NCBI GenBank assembly: GCA_947383145.1
Contig: CANDCH010000009.1
Location: 1 to 64,000 of the forward strand
Direction of reading: 5' to 3'
Origin: an uncultured bacterium
GTDB lineage: Bacteria > Bacillota > Clostridia > Oscillospirales > Oscillospiraceae
Length of the DNA stretch: 64,000 bases
Positions 13,015 to 48,756 of this stretch are shown here, piece by piece (the stretch's first letter is position 1; each line of letters starts with the position of its first letter). The notes under the pieces are model-generated. The model saw only the letters and a program-made list of their open reading frames with translations, searched no databases and had not been told where the DNA came from. The position numbers and the translations under genes were made by a program.

Positions 13015-13043
13015 TTGATTTTATCAACCGAAAGTGCTATAAT
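13015..13043 (+). promoter_or_regulatory. Promoter for the six-TM protein gene
   Basis: TTGATT (13015-13020) and TATAAT (13038-13043) are 17 bp apart, 25 bp before the start codon. This fits a sigma-A promoter well. Confidence 0.65.
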
Positions 13044-13067
13044 AAGAAAAAATGAAAGAATGATTTG

Positions 13068-13928: not shown

Positions 13929-14078
13929 GTAATAGAGATGGGGGTGAAAAGATAATTAAGCATATTAGAATCAGCCCTAACGCACCCTAAGAGAAGATTG
14001 ATTATCTGTTTTTCCCTCTGATACAGTTCGTTGGAAGAATACCTCAAATCACGAAGAAACTTTATAAGGAGTATTTGT

Positions 14079-14873
14079 ATGCCTGAAGAAACTGTCCGTC
14101 AAGTAGTGATGACACCTTATGAAATCGTAGCAACTATCCTTGCAGTAATAGCTCTGATTCAACCGTGGATTATCGCTGCATGGAAAAAGTTTTTTAAGCC
14201 GCTGAAGGTTACTTTTATCCCATCAGCAAAGATAAAGCTCTATTACAATCGTAGCGGGGCTTACATATACCTTGGCGGCGTGATCGAGGCAAAAAATCGA
14301 CCCACTGTCGTTAAAAATATTGCGGCTAAAGCTATTCGCCAAAGTGATAAAGCGGAGTTAGCAATGGATTGGTCATCTTTCATGGTGCCTGTGTTTCAGT
14401 CTGTTGGCGGCAACTCCGTCACAACAAGCGAAATAGCCCGTCCATTTATGATTAGTGCAAATGGCCTGAACCCAGTTTTTATAGAGTTTGCCAATTCGGA
14501 TACCCAAGTGGTTGATCGTTTAAGCAAAATCTATGAAAAACTGATATTAGAATCAAAGCGGATTTCCAATATAAACACGCCATTTGAGCAAGCAAAGGCT
14601 CAATTGCAGGCAATACCAGAATACCAGACATTTCGAGAGGAACTTTTGGAGAATTTTTATTGGAAAGCCTCAGACTATCAAATTAAGTTGTCAATTAGCC
14701 ATAGCGACAATAAAATTGAGATATACAAGTATCAGTTTTCGTTGGATCAAGACGAAATCACCGAGTTCAGAAAAAACATTGATGAAGCCATGTTATGCGA
14801 ATTAAAGACGCTATATTATCGGCCTGTCAATTTAAAAACTTTTCAAAAAGATTTTGTCGCTACAGAGAGATAA
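14079..14873 (+). CDS. Unknown protein with N-terminal membrane anchor
   Basis: A 264-residue protein starts at ATG 14079 after AAGGAG. One hydrophobic segment (about residues 14-35, IVATILAVIALIQPWIIAAW) would anchor it, with a ~225-residue soluble, beta-rich-looking domain behind. I do not recognise the family. It is AT-rich like its neighbours and 150 bp downstream of the orphan ABC membrane protein, with a methyltransferase remnant 2 bp after its stop. This suggests a foreign accessory module whose right side has been lost. Confidence 0.7.
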   Translation: MPEETVRQVVMTPYEIVATILAVIALIQPWIIAAWKKFFKPLKVTFIPSAKIKLYYNRSGAYIYLGGVIEAKNRPTVVKNIAAKAIRQSDKAELAMDWSSFMVPVFQSVGGNSVTTSEIARPFMISANGLNPVFIEFANSDTQVVDRLSKIYEKLILESKRISNINTPFEQAKAQLQAIPEYQTFREELLENFYWKASDYQIKLSISHSDNKIEIYKYQFSLDQDEITEFRKNIDEAMLCELKTLYYRPVNLKTFQKDFVATER

Positions 14874-14874
14874 T

Positions 14875-15035
14875 ATGCCAACATTTCTTCAAATTGGAAA
14901 AGCTCAAGTTATTAACCAGTACCAAGAAGTTCCTTTCTGAGTGCTGGAAAAGCAAAGGGATTTGACAGTAAGAATACGATCATCCACGGCGATAATATGG
15001 AAGTGCTGAAGTCTGTGCCACCCCGGCAAGCATAA
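14875..15035 (+). pseudogene. 5' remnant of a site-specific DNA methyltransferase
   Basis: The frame starts MPTFLQIGKAQVINQYQEVPF then hits TGA; in the next frame it goes on as AGKAKGFDSKNTIIHGDNMEVLKSV and then stops. This is the characteristic N-terminus of type III/Mod-like DNA methyltransferases (a lead-in ending in IHGDNLEALKSL just before the DPPY motif). The catalytic part is gone and there is a frameshift near 14935. It marks a former restriction-modification locus at this position. Confidence 0.7.
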
Positions 15036-15139
15036 TCAACTATCTATACACAATTAACAAACTTTCGAACTTGACACACCAATCGCTTTCGGCATTGATA
15101 GAGTTTTCCTCTTTCATAGATTTAGCAGCTTGCGGCGAA

Positions 15140-15154
15140 ACAGACGGCTATGTA
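15140..15154 (+). repeat. 15-bp direct repeat, copy 2 (right edge of AT-rich islet)
   Basis: Identical to 12727-12741. It is followed by a hairpin-forming stretch (GCGCCGG...CCAGCGC) near 15170-15192. Confidence 0.6.
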
Positions 15155-15296
15155 CGAGCACGAAAAAAGCGCCGGTTTTTGCACCAGCGCCCTTATCATA
15201 ATATGAAAATTAGTGAAATGTGTTTGCCTGTTACCCAAAAACCTTGATTTCATGCGGGTTTGCGGGAGTGTCGTTATGAACACTCGTACCAAGTTG
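15155..15296. other. Short non-coding stretch
   Basis: No gene is visible. It carries the hairpin after repeat copy 2 and leads into the terminator at 15297. Confidence 0.4.
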
Positions 15297-15342
15297 AAAG
15301 CTACATTTTAGCCTTATTTCAGGCTGAAATGTAGCTTTTCTA
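15297..15342 (+). terminator. Long hairpin terminator upstream of the third recombinase
   Basis: A 12-bp perfect stem (AAAGCTACATTT at 15297-15308 with 15327-15338), an extra inner AGCC/GGCT pairing and a T-rich end are visible. It isolates the recombinase from upstream transcription. Confidence 0.75.
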
Positions 15343-15350
15343 TTACAAAC

Positions 15351-15388
15351 CCTCCATGATATACTGAAGTCCAGTATTATCATGGAGG
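15351..15388 (+). promoter_or_regulatory. Inverted repeat that covers the recombinase ribosome-binding site
   Basis: CCTCCATGATATACTG (15351-15366) and its complement with one extra T (15372-15388) flank a 5-bp centre. The right arm contains the GGAGG site 7 bp before ATG 15396, so an RNA hairpin would hide it; as DNA it could be an operator or recombinase binding site. Confidence 0.6.
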
Positions 15389-15395
15389 ATTTGCT

Positions 15396-16355
15396 ATGTC
15401 CAGAAAAGTGACTGAGATCCCGCGAACAAAGCGAGATGTCCCCGTCGAAGTCCAGCGGTTTCGGGTAGCGGCCTACTGTCGGGTTAGTACCTCTCATGAG
15501 GAACAGTACCACAGTCTGGAAGCGCAGATGACCTACTACACAGATTTTATCAAACGCAATCCAAACTGGGAGTTCGTCACAGTGTATTCGGACATTGCAT
15601 CCGGCCTTCATACGACCAACCGCCCTGGTTACCAGCAGCTCATGAGAGACTGCACTAAAAGAAAGGTAGACTTGATTTTGGTAAAATCTCTCAGTCGCTT
15701 TGGCCGGGATGCGCTGGAGACGATCTGTCAGGTCAGGAAACTTAAAAGAATGGGTATCGGCATTTATATTGAAACAGGGGGGCTAAACACTATGAACATT
15801 AGCAACAGTATGATCGACCAGCTCGCGGCGCTGGATCAGGCCGAAAGCCATTTCCGCAGCGAGAACATCAAGTTCGGCACCCGCCACCGAATGAGGAGCG
15901 GAAAAACTGTGCTGAACCATACGCAATTTCTTAGCTACACCAAAGGACCGGATGGCGTTCTTCAAGTTGTGCCGGAGGAGGCCGAGATCGTTCGCAAAAT
16001 CTTCGAGCTCTACATCCAGGGCAATGGGGTGCGCAGGATCAAGCGCTACTTGGAGGAATGTGGCATCAAAACGGTAACGGGTAAATCGGAGTGGAGCACC
16101 TCCACCATAGACCGAATGTTGAGTAATGAAAAATACATCGGGGAGGTGCGGATGCAGAAAACATTCACGTCCGATTTTTTGACCGGCAGGCGGGAGAAAA
16201 ACATAGGTCAGCTTGCCTCGTACTTGGTAGAAAATGCCCATGAGCCGATCATTGAGCGAGAAACATTTGAGCTGGTACAGAGGATGAAGGGGGATATCAA
16301 AAGGCGCCAAGAGGTTCGACAAAACACAGAATCAACCAGCAAAATCATGCTTTAA
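15396..16355 (+). CDS. Serine recombinase, C-terminally short
   Basis: A 319-residue recombinase with catalytic Ser31 in AYCRVSTSHEEQ, VKSLSRFGRD and a recombinase domain (about 180-300, YTKGPDGVLQVV to YIGEVRMQ). It ends after FELVQRMKGDIKRR with a short tail, where full-length relatives continue into a zinc ribbon and coiled coil. So it may be a naturally short form or a truncated gene. The end lies only 16 bp from a MITE. Its composition is intermediate between the host and the AT-rich islet. Confidence 0.85.
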   Translation: MSRKVTEIPRTKRDVPVEVQRFRVAAYCRVSTSHEEQYHSLEAQMTYYTDFIKRNPNWEFVTVYSDIASGLHTTNRPGYQQLMRDCTKRKVDLILVKSLSRFGRDALETICQVRKLKRMGIGIYIETGGLNTMNISNSMIDQLAALDQAESHFRSENIKFGTRHRMRSGKTVLNHTQFLSYTKGPDGVLQVVPEEAEIVRKIFELYIQGNGVRRIKRYLEECGIKTVTGKSEWSTSTIDRMLSNEKYIGEVRMQKTFTSDFLTGRREKNIGQLASYLVENAHEPIIERETFELVQRMKGDIKRRQEVRQNTESTSKIML

Positions 16356-16371
16356 CAGACACTATTATTTA

Positions 16372-16468
16372 GGAGCCACTGATTTAATCAACATTTTCCA
16401 AGAAAAGCACAATATATTGCGCTTTTCTTATTCTGCAAAATCTATATAGCGAATTAATCAGTGATTCC
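16372..16468. mobile_element. 97-bp MITE related to the IS5-like element
   Basis: Terminal inverted repeats are GGAGCCACTGATTTAAT (left) and GGAATCACTGATTAAT (read inward from the right). It is flanked by TTTA on both sides (16368-16371 and 16469-16472), a 4-bp target duplication. The interior is an imperfect palindrome with an AAGAAAAGC/GCTTTTCTT stem. The ends match those of the decayed IS at 34876-36055. Confidence 0.75.
16400..16431 (+). terminator. Hairpin inside the MITE, possible terminator
   Basis: AAGAAAAGC (16400-16408) pairs with 16421-16429. It could end transcription of the upstream recombinase. Confidence 0.45.
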
Positions 16469-16631
16469 TTTATTTTCGCAAAGAACTATTCTTAAAATCA
16501 CACTCATCATTTAAATTTGAGATTGCTATATTTCCAATTGTCTGATAAAATATTATATTATGTACTATGTATACTATCTTTTATCGCCCATTGAGTTTAA
16601 CGGATATTAAATCTGAAAAGAGCGCTTTGTC

Positions 16632-18620
16632 ATGAAACTTCTATATATCTGGATTGAAGAATTCCGTAATATCCATAACCAGGGTATTGTTGTTGATAAT
16701 GAATTTTCAATTAGTGTAGCTGATCCTCAAAATTCATCTTTTGATTACTACACAGATGACGGAAGTCGTATTATATCCACTACAGGCGCACCAAAATATG
16801 GTCGGAAGATATTTATTCGTAAAATTGGCTGGTTGAAAAACAATGATTATCCTACGTATAAAACAGAGTCTGCCATAGATAGCATCTCTGCATTGGTTAG
16901 GAAAAATGCAGTAGGTAAATCCAGTATATTGGAATGTCTCAGTTCTCAGGAACATGAATATCTCGGAATTAACACTCGCTACTACTTTTTAGCATTTCTC
17001 AATCGCTCTGAACATTGCATTGAGATACGCTCCAAAGGGATTCGCATCATATCGGAAGATGTAATCTCACGGAATTCCTACAAAACTACTGGTTACGAAA
17101 CTTATATCTTACCCCTTGAAAATTTTTCACCAACATATCCGTATAAACCTGATAAACAAACTATCTTTCATTTTCTTATTTCTCAAGAGAAGGCAAATTC
17201 ATATGTTGGCTATAATGTTCTTGGAATACCAACAATTGTTGGTGATTTAGACGCGTTTAATAATTATAATGCGTTTGAAGGTGCCTTTGATTTCCTTTGT
17301 AGTTTTCCATCATTAGTCAGTTCAGGTAATAAACTTGCTGTTTTCTTGGACTCGACAGGCAGAAACCAACTTAGTGATTATTTTGAAAAGGAAAATTTAA
17401 CTTGTGCAGAGTATAAAAATTTTTATATTCAACGATTGGCACAAATTCTGTTTTCTAATTTGCGTACATACCTGTACCATCCCAAACCAGTATTTATGAT
17501 GAGCGGCAGGAGGGCGAAACTTCCAAATGAAGATATCCTTATGGAGGAAGATAAACACTGCGCCAAATTGCTTGCAATTTTTAATGGCCAATATCCAAAC
17601 GAAGGGTCAGCTGATCTGATTTCCACTAAAACTAACCGTATATCTCAAGACAAAATCCGTGATGTCCTGGATTTTTTTAGTAACAGCACGTTCTCATATA
17701 ATGGAAAATTTGCTTATGACAAATATTTAAAAAATATCGGCCAGCTATTTGAAGCATTGTTTGTTGCTGATGATAAATTATTTCCGGCAATATTCAAGCT
17801 GGAACTTCCTTTTCAGAGGCAATATAAACCATTAGTTTCAGCATTGCAGAAATGTGTAAATACGAGCGACATTTTGAACGAGAATTGGGCTAACGGATTA
17901 AATATCCGATTTGAATGGTTTTCTTCTGGTGAGTTCCATCTGGTAATGCTGTTTTCTGCGATATATCAACGAATGAAAGAAACAGATGGATATATGAGTA
18001 ACAGAGATGTTATCTGGGCTATTGATGAACCCGAAATGCATATGCATCCAGAACTCGGTCGAAGTTTTACTGGTGAATTAAATCAAGCAATGTATCAATT
18101 TAAAGATGCTGGCCTTTTTAAAACTTGTCAAATTATTTTTGCTACACATTCACCATTTTTAATTCAAAGTTTTGGACAATACAGAAGCATACTTACATTA
18201 GTTGATAAAAATGAGAACGAAATTTTCACAAGGGCCTTTGACAATATACCTCAGCTTAGATTCCCCCATCGTACAGAACTATCATTTAACCTGATAATGT
18301 ATAAGATATTTGGAGTTCCGACAGTTGAACTGCATAATGAATTATACGGCGTTTTGCAAGAATATTCACAATGTGAAAAAGAAATAGAGTTTGAGAAATG
18401 GTTAGCAAGCAAGGGGGTGCCAAAAAACAAGCAGTGGATAAGAGTATACAAGGGCCAACCCAGAGCTCCGTATCTTGTCACATTGGAAACTTATATCCGC
18501 AATTCTATACACCATCCAGAGAATCGTTACAATTCCTATCAATATTCCACTGCTGATTTAAAATGGTCTATTGAAGAAATGCTTTCTATTTTGTGGAACG
18601 AAAATGCAAGTAGGACCTAA
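16632..18620 (+). CDS. OLD-like AAA ATPase with HEPN-like C-terminal motif
   Basis: A 662-residue AT-rich gene. The ATPase core is split as in OLD/SMC-type AAA proteins: Walker A at about 90-98 (RKNAVGKSS, lacking the usual first Gly), a signature-like WFSSGEFHL before Walker B IWAIDEPEMHMHP (Asp465, Glu466), and the switch His in ATHSPF (His506). The C-terminal ~100 residues carry ELYGVLQE and IRNSIHHPEN; RNSIHH at 623-628 fits the HEPN RNase signature R-N-x3-H. Many phage-defence ATPases have this plan, so a role in abortive infection is plausible but inferred. No TOPRIM or HNH partner is next to it. Confidence 0.8.
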   Translation: MKLLYIWIEEFRNIHNQGIVVDNEFSISVADPQNSSFDYYTDDGSRIISTTGAPKYGRKIFIRKIGWLKNNDYPTYKTESAIDSISALVRKNAVGKSSILECLSSQEHEYLGINTRYYFLAFLNRSEHCIEIRSKGIRIISEDVISRNSYKTTGYETYILPLENFSPTYPYKPDKQTIFHFLISQEKANSYVGYNVLGIPTIVGDLDAFNNYNAFEGAFDFLCSFPSLVSSGNKLAVFLDSTGRNQLSDYFEKENLTCAEYKNFYIQRLAQILFSNLRTYLYHPKPVFMMSGRRAKLPNEDILMEEDKHCAKLLAIFNGQYPNEGSADLISTKTNRISQDKIRDVLDFFSNSTFSYNGKFAYDKYLKNIGQLFEALFVADDKLFPAIFKLELPFQRQYKPLVSALQKCVNTSDILNENWANGLNIRFEWFSSGEFHLVMLFSAIYQRMKETDGYMSNRDVIWAIDEPEMHMHPELGRSFTGELNQAMYQFKDAGLFKTCQIIFATHSPFLIQSFGQYRSILTLVDKNENEIFTRAFDNIPQLRFPHRTELSFNLIMYKIFGVPTVELHNELYGVLQEYSQCEKEIEFEKWLASKGVPKNKQWIRVYKGQPRAPYLVTLETYIRNSIHHPENRYNSYQYSTADLKWSIEEMLSILWNENASRT

Positions 18621-18644
18621 GACTTTGAAGATTATTGCATTACA

Positions 18645-19043
18645 ATACAGTTCTATCACTTCAAGGTTGGAGTGGTGGTTTTTGCTGAGATCAGCGAATT
18701 ACCCAAATCAAAAAAATCCTTGTCAGAGCCGGATCTTTGGATTTCATATCCACAAAGAAACTGACCATGGCGACAACATGGACGGTCCGTTCGCGGACGC
18801 ATGTCTCACTACAATCCGAACGGTTGTGAACACCCGCACTACGCCGGGGATCTGCCGCCGCCGTTCAGAAACAACGGACTTTCGCTGTGCACATTTCTGA
18901 CGAATCGCTTTTCGGTCAACGAGGTAAATGAAAGAACAGTTATCATCCATAACCATCCCGATGACTTTACAACCCAGCCGTCTGGCAGTTCCGGCACGAA
19001 AATTGTCTGTGGCGTGCTCCAGCGCACAACTTCCTGTTTCTAA
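18645..19043 (+). pseudogene. Cu/Zn superoxide dismutase-like pseudogene with two frameshifts
   Basis: Three reading frames in succession give one superoxide dismutase: VGVVVFAEISELPK, then FGFHIHKETDHGDN ... GPFADA, then HYNPNGCEHPHYAGDLPP, LTNRFSVNEV and TVIIHNHPDDFTTQPSG. The HIH, HYNP and HAGD-like ligand regions and the DDFTTQPSGxxG end are typical of the family. Frame changes fall near 18735 and 18800, and no start with a ribosome-binding site is seen. In the last part the expected YHAGDLPPL is altered to HYAGDLPPP. The gene is not functional as read. Confidence 0.75.
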
Positions 19044-36091: not shown

Positions 36092-36595
36092 TTATGGATT
36101 AGAAAAGCATTTGCATAGAGGATTCTCTCCCCGGGCACTTGGTGCGCCGCATCTTTTCTTCTTGGGCAGCTTTGAATGATTCGTCAGAAATGATGGCTTC
36201 GTGGGAATCGGAGTAAAGGTACGATCCATAAGGCCATCATTTCTGATTTGAGTGGTTTCGGTGCTGACGGTTTTTTGGAGCAGCACACGCCCTGTGTATT
36301 TTTCGTTGGACAGCAGCTTGTTGAGAGCCTCCCGGTTCCATTTGGTTTTGCCTGTGGGGGAGAGGATACTTTTCACTTCCAGTGCAGAAGCGATTTTTCC
36401 CAAGCTGTCACCATGGAGGTAACGCTCGAAAATCCAGCGGACGACAGCGGCCTCATCAAAATTTATTGTCAGTTGACCGTTCAGCCCGATGTCGTAGCCA
36501 TAGCACCTGCGCTGGGCCATCTTGGAAGTGCCATCCTGGAACCCCCTCCGCAGACCATCTTTAATTACTTGACTTTTTTGTACTGAATCCATCAT
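36092..36595 (-). pseudogene. Serine recombinase fragment without catalytic domain
   Basis: The 167-codon frame begins at ATG 36595 after a GGAGG site and encodes only the recombinase DNA-binding domain (RRCYGYDIGLNGQL, AAVVRWIFERYLHGDSLGKIA, LLSNEKYTGRVLLQK). Near 36205 the frame shifts: the alternative frame reads SDSHEAIISDESFKAAQEEK, the normal continuation. There is no zinc ribbon. Like the gene at 5516 it lacks the resolvase domain but has its own ribosome-binding site; unlike that gene it is also broken at the 3' end. Confidence 0.78.
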
Positions 36596-36871: not shown

Positions 36872-36956
36872 TGGTACGGGCAGTGGGGGTCGAACCCACA
36901 CGGATCGCTCCACAGGAACCTAAATCCTGCGCGTCTGCCAATTCCGCCATGCCCGC
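36872..36956 (-). tRNA. tRNA-Leu (anticodon UAG)
   Basis: An 85-nt type II tRNA with CCA encoded. The acceptor arm GCGGGCA pairs with TGCCCGT; the D arm is GCG/CGC; the anticodon stem CAGGA/TCCTG holds loop TTTAGGT, giving anticodon UAG for CUA codons. It has a long variable arm (GGAGCGATCC) and a T arm GTGGG/CCCAC with loop TTCGACC. Confidence 0.95.
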
Positions 36957-40471: not shown

Positions 40472-40571
40472 AAAAGAGGTACTGCCTAGGATTATCCCAA
40501 GCAGTACCATCTTTCACTTTTTAGGCCTATCGTAGAAGCGGTACTCTTACGGTACGGCTCCCCTTTAAACC
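40472..40571. repeat. Left attachment repeat of the integrative element (100 bp)
   Basis: Identical over 100 bp to 47950-48049. It contains the ntpD stop codon region and the operon terminator hairpin (GGTACTGC/GCAGTACC). Confidence 0.92.
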
Positions 40572-40673
40572 CCTGCCGGAGCTTCGCCCGAATCCCCGAA
40601 AGCTCTTACGGCTCTAGCGTCTGCCGCCTGCCGCTCCTCAATGGCTTCCTTGAGTATCATGTCCTTCACCTTT
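40565..40673 (-). pseudogene. Fragment of a second, diverged ntpD 3' end
   Basis: The minus strand encodes the last ~35 residues of V-ATPase subunit D (KVKDMILKEAIEERQAADA then RAVRAFGDSGEAPAGV, stop). The intact gene ends RQAQDARAVKAFGDSGEAPTEV. Amino-acid and silent changes show it is not a simple duplication but a homologous gene end carried on the element side of the core repeat, probably captured from an earlier host. Confidence 0.82.
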
Positions 40674-40804
40674 ATCGGGTTACGCTATTAGGTAGTGCTA
40701 ACATATCACATTTAGTCCCATCTGTCAACGCTTTTTCGCTCCTACTCTCCCAAGTAGTCCCAGCCTTTCCCCTCTAGTCCCAACCTAGAACGGGTAAAAA
40801 GACG
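40674..40804. other. Short gap between attachment region and integrase terminator
   Basis: No gene is seen. It has repeated TAGTCCCA motifs (about 40710, 40754 and 40776) that could be arm-type integrase sites. Confidence 0.35.
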
Positions 40805-40843
40805 GTAAACCCGGTAGCCCTATCCCAAAGCTACCGGGTTTAC
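40805..40843 (-). terminator. Terminator of the integrase gene
   Basis: A 14-bp perfect stem (GTAAACCCGGTAGC at 40805-40818 with 40830-40843) is followed on the minus strand by GTCTTTTTAC. Confidence 0.8.
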
Positions 40844-40851
40844 CTATCCCA

Positions 40852-41345
40852 TCATACTGCCTTGCCAGTGCTGGGAAATGGAATAATGATAGTCGGATGA
40901 TTTTCTTTCTCGTCTGTTTCAATAAACTTATCAATCTCCCCCAGCTTATCAATCTGCTTTTCTTTCGTATCCTCCAACAGGTGAATGTAGATATTGTACG
41001 TCGTTTTGACATTGGCGTGTCCCAACTGCTCACTGATTGCCTTAATATCCACTTCAGCCTCAAAGCACCGAGTAGCGTATGCATGGCGTAACGTGTGCAT
41101 AGTCGCTCCCTCAATGCCAGCTTTCTCATAGATTCTGTTCAAGACCTCTTTAATGTTTCCATACTGTACAATGTGATTGCGGCTATTGAGGAATACAAGC
41201 CCATCCTCCTGCCATTCTTCCCCAAGAGCCTCGAACCTCTCTTTCATGGATTCCTTATGTTCCCTCAATATCTCCACCAGTCCAGCAGTAATAACCACTT
41301 TACGCTTGCTGGATTTAGTCTTGCAGAAGTTTTGAACCTCCTGCT
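40852..41345 (-). pseudogene. Tyrosine integrase lacking its N-terminal half
   Basis: The frame carries the C-terminal catalytic domain: VQNFCKTKSSKRKV, HTLRHAYATRCF (box II His-x-x-Arg), ISEQLGHANVKTTYNIYIH (His and catalytic Tyr) and a tail. The arm-binding and core-binding domains and the first catalytic Arg region are missing. Upstream the sequence runs directly into the excisionase gene in another frame, which shows an internal deletion. It probably served the attachment site at 40472 before it was damaged. Confidence 0.85.
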
Positions 41346-41495
41346 TTGTGGTACACGAAAAGCTGGGAAATCTTTACTATGTACCAGCTCATATGTCCTA
41401 TTCCTCGACAGCCCTAGTACATTCCCTATATCAGAAGGTGTGAGAACCATTGGTAACATTTCTGGATTCGTCACAAGCCTATAATTTTTATTCAT
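41265..41495 (-). CDS. Excisionase-like HTH protein with aberrant C-terminus
   Basis: ATG 41495 follows GGAGG. The first ~48 residues (PMVLTPSDIGNVLGLSRNRTYELVHSKDFPAFRV) form a MerR-like excisionase HTH. Normal members end with a short FxxWL helix; here the frame passes into integrase DNA in the wrong frame (PQSRRFKTSARLNPAS) after about 41352. The HTH may still fold, but the protein is a deletion product. Confidence 0.75.
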   Translation of the reverse strand: MNKNYRLVTNPEMLPMVLTPSDIGNVLGLSRNRTYELVHSKDFPAFRVPQSRRFKTSARLNPASVKWLLLLDWWRY

Positions 41496-41507
41496 AATTA
41501 CCTCCAT

Positions 41508-41867
41508 TTTTAATGTTGATAATTTGACTTTATATTACTTTTTTAATATGTACATATCACCCCCATTTCTATGTAGTACGAGAAAGACAATACGATTGTA
41601 TTGGCAGTAATGTAAAGAGGCGTACTACTCCTGTAAATTTACCAGTTTCCTAATTTTAGGCACAATATAAACTTATCAAGGTACACGTCTTTCTTTTGGG
41701 CTGGCTCCCTGTCCTCTTTACAGTTGTTAGTATGCCATACATCGTTTCCCTTTTATATCTCCCTATATATTTTCTACTATGTAAACTGAAATTACTGTAA
41801 TGTAATGTTATAGAGATAATGATGTAATGCTTTTCCAGGCTGTGCTATTCGTATCAATGAAAAATAA
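41508..41867. other. AT-rich gap upstream of the excisionase gene
   Basis: No gene is seen. Short direct repeats (GTAATGTAA-like near 41606, 41796; TAGTACG/CGTACTA) may be regulatory or recombinase-binding sites. Confidence 0.4.
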
Positions 41868-41905
41868 GAAAATAGTGTTTGATAATTCCATCAAACACTA
41901 TTTTC
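41868..41905 (-). terminator. Terminator of the 213-aa unknown gene
   Basis: A 15-bp perfect stem (41868-41882 with 41891-41905) begins at the stop codon, with T-rich sequence on both sides. Confidence 0.85.
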
Positions 41906-42547
41906 TCATTTTTCCTGCTGTTTTAACTCCACGTATCGCAACAGTGTACTAGCTATATCCAGTTGTTTTTCCAACCCTCGCACATATTTCTGTAATACCT
42001 CTGGTCTGCACCTCTCAAGTCGGGTTAGGCTGATATTGTCCAGCCAGTTTATTCTCCCTAAAATTTCTTCTTCTATATTTACATCCGTTACTGCTTTACC
42101 ACTTTTCAAGTAAACTGCAAAATAGTATAAGTCTGCATTTTTGAGTAAGTCAACATCGCTTTCCACCATCTGATCATAAAGATTCTTTTCAAATGTCTTT
42201 GCCCCTTCAATATTCACTTCTCGCAGCTCAAATAATCTCTGCCAATCTCTACGTGAAATTGCTTCAAAGTGAAAACAGTCTTTCCCCTCAAAAATTTCAC
42301 TGCGTACACCTGTCTCAACTACAAGTCGCTTTAACTCCTCTTTTGAAAAACGTACAGGCTCCCCGCGAATAACTCTTGTGTAGCGTTCACGGCTCATATG
42401 AAAGGCTGCATAGATTGTCTGCCCTTCTGAACCTTTCTTCGCACGTCCACGTAGTCTCTGCCACATTTTACGCATGACAAGAAAATTGATTTGCCTGTTA
42501 AGCCTCTGCCGCTCTTGTTCCTCCCTGTTGCTCCTTTGCCCTGACAT
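41906..42547 (-). CDS. Unknown element protein, 213 residues
   Basis: ATG 42547 has GGAGGTGGCAGGG upstream. The product is charged and predicted largely helical, with a region resembling a small HTH (AAFHMSRERYTRVIRGEPVRFSKEELKRL), then a domain of unknown type. I cannot assign a family. Its HTH-like part and place behind the integrase module suggest an element regulator. Confidence 0.65.
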   Translation of the reverse strand: MSGQRSNREEQERQRLNRQINFLVMRKMWQRLRGRAKKGSEGQTIYAAFHMSRERYTRVIRGEPVRFSKEELKRLVVETGVRSEIFEGKDCFHFEAISRRDWQRLFELREVNIEGAKTFEKNLYDQMVESDVDLLKNADLYYFAVYLKSGKAVTDVNIEEEILGRINWLDNISLTRLERCRPEVLQKYVRGLEKQLDIASTLLRYVELKQQEK

Positions 42548-42693
42548 CCCTGCCACCTCCACCTATACATTAAATTATAGTATAGCTGATTTGGGGCAGT
42601 TTGGCAACCTGTTTAAACACTCCTGCCATTTGAAACATTTGAAACATCCAAATCAAAAAACCTCAATTTTTGGTAATGTGGTAATTTCAAAAA

Positions 42694-42727
42694 AGATACC
42701 CAGCCTAATTTTTTAGACTGGGTATCT
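42694..42727 (-). terminator. Terminator after the small membrane protein gene
   Basis: A 10-bp perfect stem (AGATACCCAG at 42694-42703 with 42718-42727) is flanked by TTTTTT on the minus strand. Confidence 0.85.
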
Positions 42728-42730
42728 CTT

Positions 42731-42874
42731 TCACTCGTTCCGCAGTTCCTCTAAACTCTCTCGCAGTATCAACACAAATTCCCTTAACAACTCTATTAAC
42801 TCATACAGTAGGTATAGCAGAACCACAAGCCCACAACACATGAAGCCTACTATAAAATCAGAGGAAGCGGTCAT
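42731..42874 (-). CDS. 47-residue single-pass membrane protein
   Basis: Read on the minus strand from ATG 42874, immediately after the stop of the 167-aa gene (TAAATG). The product starts MTASSDFIVGFMCCGLVVLL, giving one membrane helix (about residues 7-26), then an acidic amphipathic tail (ELIELLREF, LRESLEELRNE). It ends 4 bp before a perfect terminator. Coupling with the upstream gene and the terminator position support it as real. Function unknown; toxin-like or phage-replisome organiser-like small proteins have similar layouts. Confidence 0.6.
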   Translation of the reverse strand: MTASSDFIVGFMCCGLVVLLYLLYELIELLREFVLILRESLEELRNE

Positions 42875-43378
42875 TTAGACCGCCCCCTCTTTATCGCTCC
42901 TGGGGTCTCCTGTGGCCTCGCTCGTCTCCACCCCCTCATGGATTACCACCTTTCCCTTTTCGTCTACTCTGGCCCCTCCTACGCTTATCAGGGATAGCAA
43001 TGCTTTCAGCCTATCAACGTCTACGACCTCCAGTTTAAACCGATTGCTCACCAGCTCATAACGATCTCCAGCCTTGCCGCCTTTGATAACACGGGTCACA
43101 GCGAAATACTTGCTAACGCCACTGTCCTCGTCTTCCTTAATCGGAGTAAACGTAGCAAGCCTCGTTTTCGACAGCAGTCCAGTTGTGAAGTTTTCGTCCA
43201 TCACGACCTCGCCAGCCTCGTTGACGCATACGCCATTGATACGCTCTCCGTTGGCAATCTTGGCTTTGATTTGCTTGTCACTGTACCAGGTGAAGTCCCT
43301 GCTCTGATTCAGATAAACGGCCCAGCCCTCACGACGTTTACTCAGCTTTTCCTCAAAGATAACAGTAGCTTTGCACAT
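42875..43378 (-). CDS. Unknown element protein, 167 residues
   Basis: An alpha/beta protein with motifs WAVYLNQSRDFTWYSDKQIK and ERINGVCVNEAGEVVMDENF. Codon use is less AT-rich than its surroundings. There is no membrane segment or known catalytic motif. ATG 43378 has AAAGGAG upstream. It heads a two-gene unit with the 47-residue membrane protein. The family is not recognised. Confidence 0.7.
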   Translation of the reverse strand: MCKATVIFEEKLSKRREGWAVYLNQSRDFTWYSDKQIKAKIANGERINGVCVNEAGEVVMDENFTTGLLSKTRLATFTPIKEDEDSGVSKYFAVTRVIKGGKAGDRYELVSNRFKLEVVDVDRLKALLSLISVGGARVDEKGKVVIHEGVETSEATGDPRSDKEGAV

Positions 43379-43922
43379 TTTTCATTTCTCCTTTAATTTT
43401 ATTGTTTGAAAAGTTTTCTTTTCCCTTTCAACAAAACCATCTTAACGCTGGGGTCATTGATGGGCAAGACGTGATAGTTTACGGAAAAGAAAGCTTGAAT
43501 TTAGAGGGGTTGCCGGATTCATTTTATCTAATAAACCCATAGCTGTTTTTTGTTTGACAAATGGCATTTCTTACATTGCTTTCTATATTGTCATTTTAGG
43601 CATTTTTCCATTCTGAATGTTTTGTGTATGTAGTCTTTTTTCTTTTCATAACTATCATTCTTATTGCTACACTTCACAAAATCCACATACCTATACATTT
43701 TTTCTACAACCCTATTTTTTCCCTTTCAATCTCCCATTTTTCAAAAAATAACCTACTTGTAAATTTCAGTTCTAAAATTAACTTTTTTAGAAGGTATTTC
43801 ACTTTCTTGTAATTTAATGGTTGTCAAAATAAACATAAAAATTAAATGTTTCAAATCACATAACTAGCCTATTTGGAGATTAAAAACACAATGCTTTCTG
43901 TCTTTTCAAAATGAGTATAAAA
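43379..43922. other. AT-rich non-coding region, 540 bp
   Basis: No convincing gene is present. A plus-strand open stretch at about 43441-43543 (GVIDGQDVIVYGKESLNL, then stop) looks like the end of a decayed gene but has no start. The rest is T-rich low-complexity sequence. Confidence 0.4.
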
Positions 43923-43952
43923 ACAGGCCAGACGTTTTTACATCTGGCCTGT
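43923..43952 (-). terminator. Terminator of the 79-aa gene
   Basis: A 10-bp perfect stem (ACAGGCCAGA at 43923-43932 with 43943-43952) is followed by TTTTTATAC on the minus strand. Confidence 0.85.
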
Positions 43953-43958
43953 CTGCGC

Positions 43959-44198
43959 TTAATGCTTATTAGGTGTTTTTTTCTTTTTAGGTGGATTCAA
44001 ATTCCATATGTCAGCAAGTATGTCTATCTGTTCAATGACATATTTTTTTGCTCGCTCTTTCCCACAAATTGGTATAACACTTCTCTGTACCGGCTGACGA
44101 TTGATCCCACATCGTATTTGAAAATAGCAAGCATATACTCTGCCGGGATTATCATATTCCACTTGAATACAAACCTCTATGCCCTTCCTCTTTATCAT
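43959..44198 (-). CDS. Unknown element protein, 79 residues
   Basis: ATG 44198 has GAAAGGAG 9 bp upstream and the gene is followed at once by a strong terminator, so it is likely real. The product has a basic C-terminus (PPKKKKTPNKH) and three cysteines. No family is recognised. Confidence 0.6.
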   Translation of the reverse strand: MIKRKGIEVCIQVEYDNPGRVYACYFQIRCGINRQPVQRSVIPICGKERAKKYVIEQIDILADIWNLNPPKKKKTPNKH

Positions 44199-44270
44199 GT
44201 TAAACAGCTCCTTTCAAAAAATATACCCTAATTTGAAAAGAGTGCTATTTTTAACAGAACTATATAAACT

Positions 44271-44305
44271 AAAAAAGTGCTATAGCCTAAACTACAGCAC
44301 TTTTA
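44271..44305 (-). terminator. Terminator of the lipoprotein gene
   Basis: AAAAGTGCTATAG pairs with CTACAGCACTTTT with one mismatch, with T-rich flanks on the minus strand. Confidence 0.8.
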
Positions 44306-44345
44306 TAAAATGACAATGCTAAATGTATAAAATTATTCGATATGT

Positions 44346-45005
44346 TTAACTAATGCTTTCCCAGTCTTCTACTATTTCATCCCAAGTATATTCACCCTGT
44401 ATTTCCTGTGAATTGGGATTACTACGAACGGGGTCAACCGGGTCTTCATAATCATCCGGGATCCATAACCCATCTACTACTTGACCGCCACCTCCATTAA
44501 GCTGGGAACCTACACTTTCGATAAATTCAACTGTTACTTGGCCGGTTCCAACTACTTCTCCATTGGCGATGGCTTCTTGTTGCTGTTTAAGAGCTGCGTC
44601 TATTTGAGACTGTATTTCTTCATCGGTGACTTGACCACCATTAGACTGTGAAGGTGTCTCTGTCTGCCCTCCGCTGGGCTTGCTCTCCTGCGGTTTATTG
44701 GCTGTCGGTGTGTTTTCAACCGCTGGAGTTGAAATGCTCTGTTGCGTTTCCTGTTCCTCTGGAACTGTTAAACTCTCCTGCGGCTGTGTTTCTTCTGTGG
44801 GTTTCTCTGTCTCAACAGGTGCAGTTGTTTCTATTGGCTTGACTTCTTCCGATTCAACAGGTGTCTCTGGCTCTGTGCTCGCTGGCTCCGTCTGTTGTGT
44901 TTCTTGCTTTGGTTCCTCTGGCTCCTGTGCCTGTTGGCCTCCACAGGCCACCAGCGAAAGAACCAAGGCCACACTTAACACAAGTGCCAAGTATTTACTT
45001 TTCAT
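44346..45005 (-). CDS. Exported lipoprotein with Glu/Thr/Pro-rich stalk
   Basis: A 219-residue protein. Signal peptide and lipobox are clear (YLALVLSVALVLSLVACGG, cleavage before Cys21). Residues 25-130 are a low-complexity Glu/Thr/Pro/Gln stalk; about 125-219 is a small folded-looking domain (VTDEEIQSQIDAALK, VEFIESVGSQL, YTWDEIVEDWESI). It is a typical surface-tethered element lipoprotein. Its function could be surface or entry exclusion, or cell contact. AGGAAAGGAAGC lies before ATG 45005. Confidence 0.8.
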   Translation of the reverse strand: MKSKYLALVLSVALVLSLVACGGQQAQEPEEPKQETQQTEPASTEPETPVESEEVKPIETTAPVETEKPTEETQPQESLTVPEEQETQQSISTPAVENTPTANKPQESKPSGGQTETPSQSNGGQVTDEEIQSQIDAALKQQQEAIANGEVVGTGQVTVEFIESVGSQLNGGGGQVVDGLWIPDDYEDPVDPVRSNPNSQEIQGEYTWDEIVEDWESIS

Positions 45006-46219
45006 GCTTCCTTTCCTCCAAAATTATTCTTAACAGGTTCCGCATGAACTGCCCTGACTGGTTTGCCAGGGACAGTTCATGCTTTCCCTGCCAAGAATAA
45101 CAAGAGCAGTGCGACGAGTTGTGTAAAACCCATCACACTGCCTGACATTTCTATCAAAGCAAACACAGCTATTTTTCCTGCCCTATTGCTAAATCTGATT
45201 CAGACAGGTATAATAATACTGGGTGCAGAGATTTCTCTGCTGTGCTGGGTAGCCGAGATACCCGTACAGCCTTGGAGAGGGTTGCCGCCCTCTCCAAGGT
45301 GCCTGCAATCGTTATCCTTGTACTATCTATTTTACCGCCTGCGCTCCTATCCGTCAATAGCCTATCTCAAAATCTCCCTATAGGCAAGGTCACTTTATCC
45401 CCTTTTTCTTTCGTTGAGTGGTAGGGTATATACCCTATGCTCTGTTTTAAGGTTCCATCTATCAATAAGAATTGCATAGCAGTACAAAAAGACAGGTACA
45501 GTAAATAAATTGCTGTACCTGTTTCTTCTGCTTATGCTGATTTTTACGAAACTGTCTATTTTTCTTTCTGATAAACTCCCGACACTTTTTCATATGTTGT
45601 TTTCTCTGCTTAATGTTATTATTGAGAAATTCCAAATTGTCTCACTTTTCTGCCTTTGTATCATCTATCTATTGCGCATTGTTTATATTTTCTTTCTTAT
45701 TTGCTACAAACACCAGATAAAAGTTTTAAATCCTAATCTACAAGTTTATTGTATCAAATTGTAAATGTAAATCGTGTGTCATTACATTGATTCAAGGATT
45801 TAATTGTATTAGTATATATTTTCACTACTATGTACAACAATCCAGCTTATAACCCTAAATAATATAAAGTTTGCAATCTGAATTTCCTTAGATATGTATA
45901 ATTTCCTCTATGTTTGCTTTGTCATAAAACAGGTTTTTTACCGCACTCTTTAGATATTGTTTTCTATCAGAAATGTTGCGGCCAATGTTTCAGATAATTG
46001 TCTATCTTTCATGACAAATCTATGATAGAGGTATCTTTATTAAAAGTTCTCAATTTATACCATGTACCCACTACCTCAACTTTTTTACACTTCTGGATTT
46101 TAAGCCTTTTTCACCCCACTGTATCACCGAAAAATCTATAATGTATTGCAAATAAAATCCCCCTCTGTATCCTGATTTTTTCAAAAGCCGATACCATTTT
46201 TTATTTTTAACCAAATATT
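45006..46219. other. 1.2-kb AT-rich non-coding region with clustered hairpins
   Basis: I find no gene with a ribosome-binding site. Hairpins are at 45042-45082 (GCATGAACTG arms), three in series at 45225-45299, and 45492-45522 (ACAGGTACAG arms). The remaining part to 46.2 kb is featureless AT-rich DNA. It could hold an origin or RNA for the element. Confidence 0.5.
45225..45299. ncRNA. Candidate structured RNA: three consecutive hairpins
   Basis: Stems: GCAGAG/CTCTGC (45225-45240), GGGTA/TACCC (45247-45263) and the 12-bp perfect stem CCTTGGAGAGGG (45270-45281 with 45288-45299). They are packed within 75 bp and are GC-rich in an AT-rich setting. The orientation is unclear. Confidence 0.35.
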
Positions 46220-46257
46220 CACAGCCAGCACCTAAAACCTTTTAAGTGCTGGCTGTG
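46220..46257 (-). terminator. Terminator of the resolvase gene
   Basis: A 12-bp perfect stem (CACAGCCAGCAC at 46220-46231 with 46246-46257) lies 31 bp after the resolvase stop. Confidence 0.85.
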
Positions 46258-46287
46258 TAATGTACTCTATTTTTTTATATCTGATTA

Positions 46288-46863
46288 TCAAATATCTATA
46301 ACCATGTTATCCTCCTCAAACTCACGCACTTTCCGATACCACGTTGAGCGTGAAATCCCTAACTGCTTCGCTCCTTTACTCGCTGATAACTTCCCCTCTT
46401 TCACAGCGAGATAAACATCCTCGAAAGTATCAACTGCTTTCTTTGGCCTGCCGTTCATCCTCCCCTCTGCCTTGGCGATCGCTATCCCCTCGGCCTGACG
46501 GTCAAGTATTGTGTCTCTCTCAAACTCCACCAATCCCGCAAAGACTGTCAGCATAAACTTTCCTGCATTCGTATCTGTATCAATCTTTTCTTTCTGACTT
46601 ACAAAACGTACCCCTTTCTCTTTTAATGCTGCTGTCAAATTGAGTAAATCTTGTGTGTTCCTAGCAAAGCGGGAAAAGGATTCAACGACTAAAGTATCAC
46701 CCTCCCGCACAAAATCCATCATCTTGTGAAGTTCGGGCCTCTCTGCATCCTTTCCGCTCATTTTGTCAGTATAAACCTTTTCAACATCTAACTGTCTCAT
46801 AAGTTCATCCTGACGGGCTGTGTTTTGCTCTTTGGTGCTAATGCGTACATAACCGACTTTCAT
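46288..46863 (-). CDS. Small serine resolvase/invertase
   Basis: A 191-residue protein of the Tn3-resolvase/Hin type: catalytic Ser in GYVRISTKEQ, ESFSRFARNTQDLL, ERDTILDRQAEGIAIAKAEGR helix E and a C-terminal HTH (SASKGAKQLGISRSTWYRKVREF). ATG 46863 (TAGGAGCG upstream) is preferred to an upstream frame start. Such proteins resolve multimers or invert segments at sites next to their own gene. It is intact, unlike the element integrase. Confidence 0.92.
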   Translation of the reverse strand: MKVGYVRISTKEQNTARQDELMRQLDVEKVYTDKMSGKDAERPELHKMMDFVREGDTLVVESFSRFARNTQDLLNLTAALKEKGVRFVSQKEKIDTDTNAGKFMLTVFAGLVEFERDTILDRQAEGIAIAKAEGRMNGRPKKAVDTFEDVYLAVKEGKLSASKGAKQLGISRSTWYRKVREFEEDNMVIDI

Positions 46864-46914
46864 TGTAATCGCTCCTATCAACTAGTTTTTCAAATGAAAC
46901 TGAACACCGAAAGC

Positions 46915-47023
46915 GTCCCGAAAGTGTTGCGCCCGGAAAGCTATACCATTCAAAGCGTTTCAGACTCCATCCTTTTTTACCCTCTGGAAGTGTCCCGAAA
47001 GCTCCGCTTCCGTTTTCAAAGCG
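46915..47023. promoter_or_regulatory. Candidate res site: paired direct repeats upstream of the resolvase
   Basis: GTCCCGAAAG occurs at 46915-46924 and 46992-47001, with the related CCCGGAAAGCT at 46932. TTCAAAGCG occurs at 46949-46957 and 47015-47023. The array lies 50-160 bp upstream of the resolvase start, where resolvase subsites are expected. Confidence 0.45.
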
Positions 47024-47190
47024 CCTTTTTGGTGCGTCTCATTTGATACCTAAACTTCATTTTAGAGCAATCATACATGACCCAATAAAAGTTGAAACAT
47101 TTGAAACATACGCACAAAAAAGAAGCACTGCCCAGAAGAAGCCCCAAACAGTACTCCTTTACATCTTGAACAGAGCTATTAAAATTTTTA

Positions 47191-47219
47191 TAGACATTGA
47201 AAATAAAAAGTAGTATAAT
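47191..47219 (+). promoter_or_regulatory. Promoter of the NYN-domain gene
   Basis: TAGACA (47191-47196) and TATAAT (47214-47219) are 17 bp apart, 22 bp before the start codon. The transcript would have a very short leader. Confidence 0.75.
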
Positions 47220-47241
47220 GTCTAAAGAAAGGAGTTTTGAT

Positions 47242-47793
47242 ATGGACAAAGTTGCTATTTTTATTGATGGTGCCTATCTTTCTAAAGTACTAAAGGAGAG
47301 CTTTTCTTCTACACAGATTGATTTCTCAAAACTGAGTACTTTTCTTGCAAATGGCGATCCCATTCTACGTACATATTATTATAATTGTATGCCATATAAA
47401 TCTCCTGCTCCGAGCAGTGGTGAAATTGCTAGATATAATAATATGCAAAGATTTGTTACTTCACTTGAAAAACTTGACCGCTATGCAGTTCGACTTGGCA
47501 AATTAGAAAATAGAGGACGCAAAGCAGATGGTACGCCAATTTTCCAGCAAAAAAGGGTGGATATTTTATTAGGTTGCGATTTGGTCCTTTTAGCTGCTAA
47601 GCAACGTATTGGGAAAGCTATACTGATTACTGGAGATAGTGACTTTATTCCTGCTATTGAGGTTGCAAAAAATGAAGGCGTTGAAATTGAATTAGTATAT
47701 GATTCTGCGCATCATCCTCATAGTAGCTTAACTTTAATTGCTGATGTGAGAAAAGAGTTATCTCAAGCTGATATTGATTCTGTCAAAAAGTAA
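47242..47793 (+). CDS. NYN-domain (PIN-like) putative RNase
   Basis: A 183-residue protein of the NYN/LabA/DUF88 group. The acidic catalytic positions are in AIFIDGAYL, KRVDILLGCDLVLL and LITGDSDFIPAIE. Family members are metal-dependent ribonucleases or RNA-binding regulators. ATG 47242 follows AAAGGAG. It is the only plus-strand gene of the element, has its own promoter and terminator, and sits at the right end next to the attachment repeat, the usual place for cargo such as defence genes. Confidence 0.87.
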   Translation: MDKVAIFIDGAYLSKVLKESFSSTQIDFSKLSTFLANGDPILRTYYYNCMPYKSPAPSSGEIARYNNMQRFVTSLEKLDRYAVRLGKLENRGRKADGTPIFQQKRVDILLGCDLVLLAAKQRIGKAILITGDSDFIPAIEVAKNEGVEIELVYDSAHHPHSSLTLIADVRKELSQADIDSVKK

Positions 47794-47898
47794 CAAGAGA
47801 AAATTTGAATTTACAGTTGACTTTTTCTCCTTTTTTGCATATAATAAGTTATGTAAATAGTTGCTACATTCATATCGAATGATAGCGTAAATGAAGAT

Positions 47899-47930
47899 GG
47901 CCCCCTCTAATGAGGGGGCCCTTTTGTTTT
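47899..47930 (+). terminator. Terminator of the NYN gene
   Basis: A 9-bp perfect stem (GGCCCCCTC at 47899-47907 with 47912-47920) is followed by CTTTTGTTTTG. Confidence 0.9.
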
Positions 47931-47949
47931 GTTGATATAATTAGCACAG

Positions 47950-48049
47950 AAAAGAGGTACTGCCTAGGATTATCCCAAGCAGTACCATCTTTCACTTTTT
48001 AGGCCTATCGTAGAAGCGGTACTCTTACGGTACGGCTCCCCTTTAAACC
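47950..48049. repeat. Right attachment repeat; also carries the V-ATPase operon terminator
   Basis: Identical to 40472-40571. GGTACTGC (47956-47963) pairs with GCAGTACC (47979-47986) and gives a minus-strand terminator ending TCTTTT. The repeat reaches into the last codons of ntpD. Confidence 0.92.
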
Positions 48050-48756
48050 TCCGTCGGAGCTTCGCCCGAATCCCCGAAAGCCTTTACGGCTCTAGCGTCC
48101 TGCGCCTGCCGTTCCTCGATGGCTTCCTTCAAAATCATGTCTTTGACTTTCATCAGCCGGGTGGTGGTGGAGCGGTCGTTCTCATCCAGCTTCATGGTGA
48201 TATAGCGGATGCTGTCCTGGGTGTCGGGGATGACCACGTACTCCAGCGCGTTGACGCGCCGCCGGGTCTTTTCAATCTCTTCCGCCATGAGCTGGGCCGC
48301 CTTCTCGGTCTGGGCCAGCTTCAGCATGTCCTGGAACACCTTGCCCAGGGCGGCCACCGCTCCGTCCAGCTCGCCGCTGGTGGCGGCAAAGCCGTAGGGG
48401 AAGATATCGCCGGTGTCGTCGGTGCGGGTTTGATAGTGATATACCGGCACGTTGACGCTCATGATGTTCTGGAAGGTCATGGTGAGCTCCACCGACTGCT
48501 TGGGATACATCAGCGCCTGCTCCATGGCCTGGGCGCTCATCAGCGCGGAGGCCACGGTGAAGGAGCTGTGCACCCGCATCAGCTCCTCCTCCACCTGGGC
48601 GCGGAGGGAGCGCAGCTCCCGCACGGTGTCCAGGAACTGCTTCATCAGCTCGTCCCGCTTGTCCTTGAGCAGCTTGTGGCCCCGCTGGGCGGTTTTCAGC
48701 TTGCCCTTCAGCCGGGTGAGCTCCATTCGGGTGGGGTTGACCACGGTGTTTGCCAT
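48043..48756 (-). CDS. ntpD: V-type ATPase subunit D
   Basis: A 237-residue central-stalk subunit D: N-terminal NPTRMELTRLKGKLKTAQRG and a C-terminal long helix (RRVNALEYVVIP, then LKEAIEERQAQDARA). It links rotation of the membrane ring to the A/B catalytic head. It is the last gene of the operon, 13 bp after ntpB. Its final codons lie in the attachment repeat of the integrative element, which restores a complete reading frame. Confidence 0.95.
   Translation of the reverse strand: MANTVVNPTRMELTRLKGKLKTAQRGHKLLKDKRDELMKQFLDTVRELRSLRAQVEEELMRVHSSFTVASALMSAQAMEQALMYPKQSVELTMTFQNIMSVNVPVYHYQTRTDDTGDIFPYGFAATSGELDGAVAALGKVFQDMLKLAQTEKAAQLMAEEIEKTRRRVNALEYVVIPDTQDSIRYITMKLDENDRSTTTRLMKVKDMILKEAIEERQAQDARAVKAFGDSGEAPTEV

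Follow-up and report, generated by a model that had tools for sequence, protein, structure and literature searches.

A mobile genomic island, apparently defective, at the 3' end of the V-type ATPase subunit D gene of an uncultured Oscillospiraceae bacterium

Insertion of mobile elements at the 3' ends of housekeeping genes, with the gene left intact, is already established (PMC5704250). Integrative and conjugative elements (ICEs) and integrative and mobilizable elements (IMEs) insert in the 3' ends of rpmG, rpsI, fda, and rplL (PMC7563491; PMC5704250), and 14 of 68 integrated elements of Thaumarchaeota lie in 3'-distal regions of protein genes (PMC6563490). Mobile genomic islands are defined by an integrase of their own and by the absence of both prophage signature genes and further conjugation signature proteins (PMC7563491). 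In the excerpt of PMC2828477, V-type ATPase is mentioned only as a gene cluster. Here, we describe an insert at the 3' end of ntpD, the gene for V-type ATPase subunit D, in a stretch of 64,000 nt (the window) from an uncultured Oscillospiraceae bacterium (contig CANDCH010000009.1 of assembly GCA_947383145.1; genome G000 below), the assembly being a draft of 58 contigs that is 85% complete. Although its site is unusual, the insert belongs to a known kind of element, the mobile genomic island. It very probably represents a defective member of a family of such islands, in which a tyrosine integrase recombines the core of the element's attachment site (attP) with the KVKDM codons of ntpD. A preliminary description of the window had proposed an integrative element at the ntpD 3' end and called a V-ATPase gene end an unusual target; the site is indeed unusual, but the principle is known (PMC5704250; PMC6563490). 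No integration site in a V-ATPase subunit D gene was found among the literature matches listed, and we claim no priority, the main survey of protein-gene sites and the TIGER database having been outside this search.

Direct repeat, inferred crossover position and the probable new ntpD end

Only one long direct repeat occurs at the locus: the 205 nt of 40472-40676 recur at 47950-48154 with 92% identity and a spacing of 7,478. Its length is far above chance expectation; the runner-up direct repeats within the 10-kb region were 39 nt long at 72-74%. When the repeat copies were aligned, 40472-40571 and 47950-48049 agreed over 100 nt without mismatch, and all mismatches were confined to the other 105 nt, within the ntpD coding region. 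The copies of the ntpD tail are 85% identical (16 differences in 108 nt). Within the 100-nt block, the stop codon of ntpD (48043-48045) is accompanied by a strong hairpin (z = -5.25 and -5.14) that leads into a U-run. The GC content is 0.60-0.67 in the flanks vs 0.35-0.43 over 41-48 kb. The perfect 100-bp repeats with stop codon and terminator, and the AT-rich insert between them, were thus as previously described. The ntpD product was assigned to V-type ATPase subunit D by Pfam (ATP-synt_D, 3.8e-62) and NCBIfam (PRK00373.1-2, over cut-off). The core-to-core distance is 7,478 bp, and the sites are as follows.

48043..48756, minus strand: ntpD, V-type ATPase subunit D, 237 aa, the target gene
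48136..48150, minus strand: proximal attachment core, KVKDM codons of ntpD, putative crossover
48043..48135, minus strand: NtpD C-terminal tail behind the core, probably element-supplied, as in the family
48004..48021, minus strand: P'-side arm-type motif TACCGCTTCTACGATAGG, 128 nt from the core
47950..47992, minus strand: terminator hairpin and U-run (hairpin 47956-47986)
40779..40796, minus strand: P-side arm-type motif TACCCGTTCTAGGTTGGG, 125 nt from the distal core
40658..40672, minus strand: distal attachment core
40565..40657, minus strand: second NtpD tail, 85% identical to the proximal tail
40526..40543, minus strand: second P'-type arm motif, which a plain host end would not be expected to carry
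40472..40511, minus strand: second terminator copy (hairpin 40478-40508)

The crossover appears to lie about 100 nt upstream of the ntpD stop, in the KVKDM codons. It could be placed with an occupied and an empty site, those of Flavonifractor sp. AGMB03687 (G118) and G182, in which the flank past the displaced tail of G118 matches the sequence behind the ntpD gene of G182 (89.7% over 1,486 bp). In a three-way alignment, the ntpD gene of G118 follows G182 up to AAGGTAAAGGA and then diverges, and the displaced copy of G118 follows G182 from AAGGATATG onward. The agreement with G182 switches at the core, suggesting that the exchange took place within AAGGA of the KVKDM codons. In addition, the core pattern AGGTnAAGGA(T/C)ATG, which spans these codons (AAGT in L068), opens the displaced tail in all eight distal copies examined (window, G313, G118, L068, L069, L070, L071, and G387), the core having been searched by that very pattern.

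Empty sites were also sought in relatives. In insert-free relatives such as G310 and G439, the single ntpD is complete and is followed by neither an arm motif nor a serine recombinase. The ntpD body of G439 is 95.5% identical in DNA to that of the window, and its terminator is different. The terminator stem of G310 resembles that of the window (GGTACTGC...GCAGTACC), so element tails and terminators may derive from a host of the window's genus. Two repeat copies without an insert, the case that would speak against integration, were absent among 25 congeners and the window's source genome: a second match to the ntpD tail, scored for residues 193-237, occurred only in G000 and G313, and both carry an insert. 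At E <= 1e-40, one ntpD was found in 36 of the 39 congener genomes with a match and two in 3.

On the basis of these comparisons, the integrase of intact members would recombine the attP core with the KVKDM codons. All sequence downstream of the crossover would enter with the element, so the island would bring, besides the last 32 or so NtpD codons with their stop, a terminator and an arm site for the integrase, and the former host tail would be displaced to the far side of the island, past the integrase gene. Xis would drive excision, and the integrase would bind the arm motifs. The D chain of Enterococcus hirae (3aon_A, 217 residues) aligns to NtpD residue 208 and ends three residues later, indicating that the part of NtpD downstream of the crossover is an extension absent from the E. 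hirae homologue; other solved D subunits are longer than 3aon_A. The element-type tail (ARA..FG.SGEAP) was found in hosts of several genera (G118, G400, G448, G250, G087, and the window), and it is unlike the native or displaced tails of Flavonifractor and Dysosmobacter. It is conceivable, but in our opinion quite unlikely, that one arm of the attachment site doubles as the code for the NtpD tail, that integration and excision switch the tail, and that one tail type has in this way spread across genera; in that case, and if the tail affects the pump, the island would tune its host's rotary ATPase.

The island family and the genes of the window insert

The ntpD end was searched in 300 genomes of the host family, and searches for NtpD covered 40 relatives as well as the 42 genomes of the genus. 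The integrase, searched in 400 genomes of the host family, gave 3 matches at E <= 1e-60, and a scan of GTDB contigs gave 6 loci, comprising 5 close relatives and one partial match of 35%. Besides the window, elements were found at ntpD in G313, G311, G317, G118, G400, G250, G387, and G448. G445 has a decayed element with a 41-residue recombinase fragment, and in G446 and G087 an arm motif follows ntpD and the contig ends shortly after. The hosts include Flavonifractor sp. AGMB03687 (G118), Flavonifractor sp. An306 (G400), and Candidatus Flavonifractor intestinigallinarum, together with metagenome-assembled genomes (MAGs) of Dysosmobacter sp. (G448) and Anaerotruncus sp. (L070). Both ends lie on one contig in five cases, with core-to-core lengths of 7.5 kb (window), 3.7 kb (G313), 10.6 kb (G118), 1.9 kb (G387), and 11.9 kb (G448). 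The fullest layout, seen in G118 and G448, is ntpD, arm motif, serine recombinase, cargo, a conserved protein, xis, two genes, integrase, arm motif, core, and displaced ntpD tail.

The small serine recombinase was present at E <= 1e-70 in 6 of the 400 sampled genomes, and in 5 of them, G000 included, it lies 303-1162 nt past the ntpD stop. Cargo can separate ntpD from the recombinase, as with the NYN gene in the window and an SduA-like gene in G313. Full-length open integrase frames were found in G118, L068, L069, and L070 (in L070, 382 residues with its own stop), and only C-terminal integrase fragments in the window, G400, G387, and G313. Relative to P0001, the 405-residue integrase of Flavonifractor sp. 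AGMB03687, the fragments start at about residue 241 (window 40852-41298), 200 (L071:2702-3319), 253 (L115:4244-4690), and 319 (L053:7198-7389). The four fragments may result from decay that happened more than once, or may mark non-autonomous elements that are moved in trans. Of the parts searched for, the recombinase and a piece of the integrase are all that G387 keeps. In G313 the SduA-like gene persists together with an xis-like piece, an integrase fragment, and a recombinase interrupted by an internal stop. The SduA-like gene of G313 (L053:4062-5276) codes for a 404-aa protein resembling Shedu (SduA, DUF4263), with a best PADLOC match of 5.9e-10 and no NCBIfam match. G118 carries a D12-class methyltransferase as cargo. 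The SduA/DUF4263-like protein, the NYN protein of the window, and this methyltransferase are defence-like. In the Anaerotruncus MAG, about 340 bp (L070:5097-5440) separate the integrase stop from the P motif; the corresponding gap in G118 is about 55 bp. Of the 340 bp, a piece of 36 bases recurs behind ntpD in L038:1353-1388 (2 of 138 loci), and the extra sequence is possibly a small transposable element.

Each end of the G118 island carries one copy of the arm-type motif TACCGCTTYTANGNTGGG (2 matches vs 0.03 expected). With up to 3 mismatches it gave 4 matches in the window vs 0.78 expected, three of them at the island ends and one elsewhere, at 2396. The P motif, on the integrase side, is 125 nt from the core in 7 of the 8 distal ends and 124 nt in the eighth, G118 and L068 being near-identical elements among these. 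The P' motif, on the ntpD side, was found with at most 3 mismatches at 13 of 51 ntpD loci, 48 of which are distinct (L120, L121, and L123 repeat L024, L096, and L094); L043 and L015, with no core by the pattern, were left out of the count. Its distance from the core is 125-135 nt in 12 loci and 121 nt in one (G050), while the tails at P'-bearing loci vary from 25 to 35 residues, suggesting that the core, rather than the stop codon, fixes the position of the motif. The background was 3 of 2,040 sequence windows at up to 4 mismatches, a level at which the P' motif of G313 also matches. These motifs are probably arm-type integrase sites. At L012 (G189), L104 (G353), and L007 (G050), ntpD is followed by an arm motif with no serine recombinase in about 1.5 kb; these are possible footprints of former islands.

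In the window, all assigned genes of the insert share the orientation of ntpD, with the sole exception of the NYN gene.

47197..47793, plus strand: NYN-domain (LabA-like nuclease) protein, cargo (Pfam NYN 6.3e-16; PADLOC NYN 1.1e-8)
46288..46881, minus strand: small serine recombinase of resolvase/invertase type, the usual partner near ntpD (Pfam Resolvase 1.1e-40)
44346..45005, minus strand: probable lipoprotein with low-complexity linker, cargo (signal and lipobox by eye; library matches weak)
42875..43378, minus strand: element protein with homologues in two relatives (L054, L070); no Pfam match
41906..42562, minus strand: element protein with homologues in four relatives (G118, L068, L069, L070); no Pfam match
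41265..41507, minus strand: excisionase-type helix-turn-helix protein, xis (Pfam HTH_17 1.5e-6)
40852..41298, open frame to 41352, minus strand: tyrosine integrase C-terminal fragment (Pfam Phage_integrase 1.1e-17)

The window copy looks like a defective member of the family. Its integrase fragment matches residues 241-405 of P0001, and the C-terminus of xis is replaced by integrase-gene sequence in another reading frame. G118 has two extra genes between xis and the integrase, whereas in the window the xis frame runs directly into integrase sequence. The simplest account is that one deletion took the end of xis, the two intervening genes, and the first 240 or so integrase residues. The lost part includes the TGMR segment (residues 203-206), which we take to hold the first catalytic arginine of the integrase. 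Autonomous excision by the window copy is therefore unlikely, and this copy would not be able to leave by itself. In a selection comparison of integrase fragments, synonymous differences of the window fragment were 0.72-0.86, near saturation, which masks any selection signal. PHROGs searches of 9 window, 7 G118, and 1 G313 proteins returned integrase, excisionase-type, invertase-type, methyltransferase, and unknown-function families, no virion, packaging, or satellite signature gene, and one weak lysis-amidase match, to an SH3-domain lipoprotein.

Other parts of the window also bear recombinases. In a second AT-rich stretch (13000-19000), the gene at 15396-16355 codes for a large serine recombinase whose Ccr-like matches fall below cut-off. 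An ATPase-like protein of 662 aa from this stretch weakly matches retron and PtuA effector ATPases. The stretch is likely another island, perhaps with defence cargo. A serine recombinase fragment with a weak Ccr-like match (36092-36595) adjoins a tRNA-Leu gene (36872-36956). An Rfam scan of 36-50 kb gave tRNA as the sole match.

Competing accounts of the locus and its left end

In the preliminary description, the 100-bp repeat was the attachment site itself, and the right repeat was thought to restore ntpD and its terminator. Taken literally, the block would be the core, duplicated by one integration. The perfect 100-nt identity, including stop codon and terminator, favors such an event, but the crossover deduced from G118 and G182 maps upstream in the KVKDM codons, and the core pattern starts the displaced tail in every distal copy examined. 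The different terminator at the close native site of G439 indicates that the right repeat replaces the host end and does not restore it; tail, arm motif, and terminator would all enter with the element. This literal account is therefore highly improbable to us. The claim of an integrative element at the ntpD 3' end stands, in the form of an integrase-bearing island with one occupied/empty pair.

Several observations weigh against an island with a crossover in the KVKDM codons. The common start of the displaced copies rests partly on the core pattern; as the distal cores were searched by that pattern, independent support comes from tblastn, in which the displaced copies start at residue 202-204 in five cases and at 198 in L071, but at 178 in G387 (a weak match, 47%), with no tblastn start obtained in L070. 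The empty site used for G118 belongs to a different species (G182). G003, the weakest of the 6 recombinase matches, has no ntpD within 12 kb, and no complete ntpD was recovered from the L068 genome. At 4 mismatches the P' motif also matches G309 and G441, with no recombinase nearby. Excision and integration are predicted from sequence comparison, and arm-motif binding is putative. The left end of the window is a further difficulty. A plain displaced host end, as in G118, consists of core, native tail, and native terminator, but the window has core, tail, P' arm motif, and terminator, which together with the P motif gives an attP-like arrangement (P-core-P', 40526-40796). The two tails of G313 are identical over about 120 nt, the first half being host-like (cf. 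G434) and the second half element-like. One-step integration does not explain these two cases. Moreover, the 85% complete assembly of the window yielded no RNase J, the gene located behind ntpD in G439.

The neighborhood of the left end was compared in the genus. The left end adjoins efp, and efp and ntpD lie on separate contigs in all 34 congeners with both genes; the congeners are also drafts, so that separate contigs are no proof of distance. In G439, a regulator gene (lrp-type by eye) lies in front of efp. In G000 this regulator sits inside contig C24 beside a different gene, and efp is on C9. The genes in front of efp vary across the genus (8 loci inspected for open reading frames). The variable neighbors of efp and the moved regulator make a real rearrangement plausible.

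Three events were considered, all of them concerning the left end only. We favor accretion, although we hold it to be about evenly balanced between right and wrong: the present element would have integrated at an ntpD core already occupied by an older one, which would then have been largely lost in a deletion that also took host DNA. Accretion followed by deletion fits both the window, with its P-core-P' arrangement, and G313, whose displaced tail is element-like and then cut off inside the arm region. Arm motifs without a nearby recombinase in G353 and G189 point the same way, and accretion and gene-less microCIMEs have been described for other islands (PMC5704250; PMC7563491). However, the flank 38301-40471 matches only the window's own loci among the loci compared, nothing element-like lies past the terminator, and no outer core was found by the strict core pattern. 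Gene conversion, in which the proximal copy overwrote about 100 nt of the displaced host end, is a more doubtful explanation. It would account for tails that differ at 16 of 108 nt next to about 100 identical nt, and for the wholly identical tails of G313, but it needs recombination across about 100 nt, and the sequence beyond differs from the ntpD flank of relatives. An assembly artefact, that is, a false join to efp made by reads of a circular form (P-core-P') or by a repeat, seems unlikely. The fragmented draft, the separation of efp from ntpD in the congeners, and the missing RNase J are in line with such a join, whereas the varying efp neighbors in the genus and the regulator now in C24 suggest a real rearrangement. 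Accretion then deletion would thus be the favored origin of the attP-like left end, with gene conversion behind it.

Mobility and comparison with described systems

The islands of G118 and G448 are 92.0% identical over 6,964 bp and 95.5% over 3,359 bp, while their ntpD bodies are 78.2% identical over 582 bp, indicating transfer between genera. L068 and G118 are 98.2% identical over 5,291 bp, and their flanks do not match. The transfer is recent. The family has its own integrase, precise single-site insertion with an empty site, and horizontal transfer, as expected of mobile genomic islands. By Pfam, no relaxase, coupling-protein, or type IV secretion system gene was detected among the 9 proteins of the window element and 10 of the 44 open reading frames of at least 60 aa in the G118 region, these 10 being picked as likely genes. 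In IMG/VR contigs, the integrase gave 16 pattern matches and 0 relatives, and the serine recombinase gave 2 loci with 35-36% identity over residues 33-107. Matches in 776 plasmid records and 2,830 phage records were all below 60% identity, with 28-32% among the best 5 and 8, respectively. Taken together, sequence comparison supports the existence of the family, the crossover in one occupied/empty pair, near-fixed arm distances, and intergeneric transfer.

The family is a clear example of mobile DNA that has rewritten the terminus of a core energy-coupling protein, and its target site has seen repeated invasion and decay. An integrase with a defined target in a conserved, mostly single-copy gene could also aid genetics in related gut bacteria.

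The integrase distantly matches the Int protein 6emy and its relatives (E 1e-11), which we take to be the Tn1549-type integrase. The two share the tyrosine integrase fold family, with only a distant sequence match, and target choice in the Tn1549-type family is broad. The Thaumarchaeal elements are similar to the ntpD islands in giving the target a new gene end with its own stop codon, as demonstrated there by empty-site comparison, but they reside in archaea and use other targets, a Zn-finger gene in one figure (PMC6563490). The ICEs and IMEs of housekeeping 3' ends likewise preserve the gene, accrete in tandem, and decay to cis-mobilizable elements (CIMEs) (PMC5704250; PMC7563491), but unlike them no relaxase or conjugation gene was present among the ntpD-island proteins scanned. 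The closest likeness is to the mobile genomic islands, with which the family shares a tyrosine integrase, an excisionase, site-specific insertion into the 3' end of a gene whose reading frame stays open, and cargo. It differs from other mobile genomic islands in its target ntpD, in the roughly 32 codons that it supplies, and in having a small serine recombinase as its usual partner.

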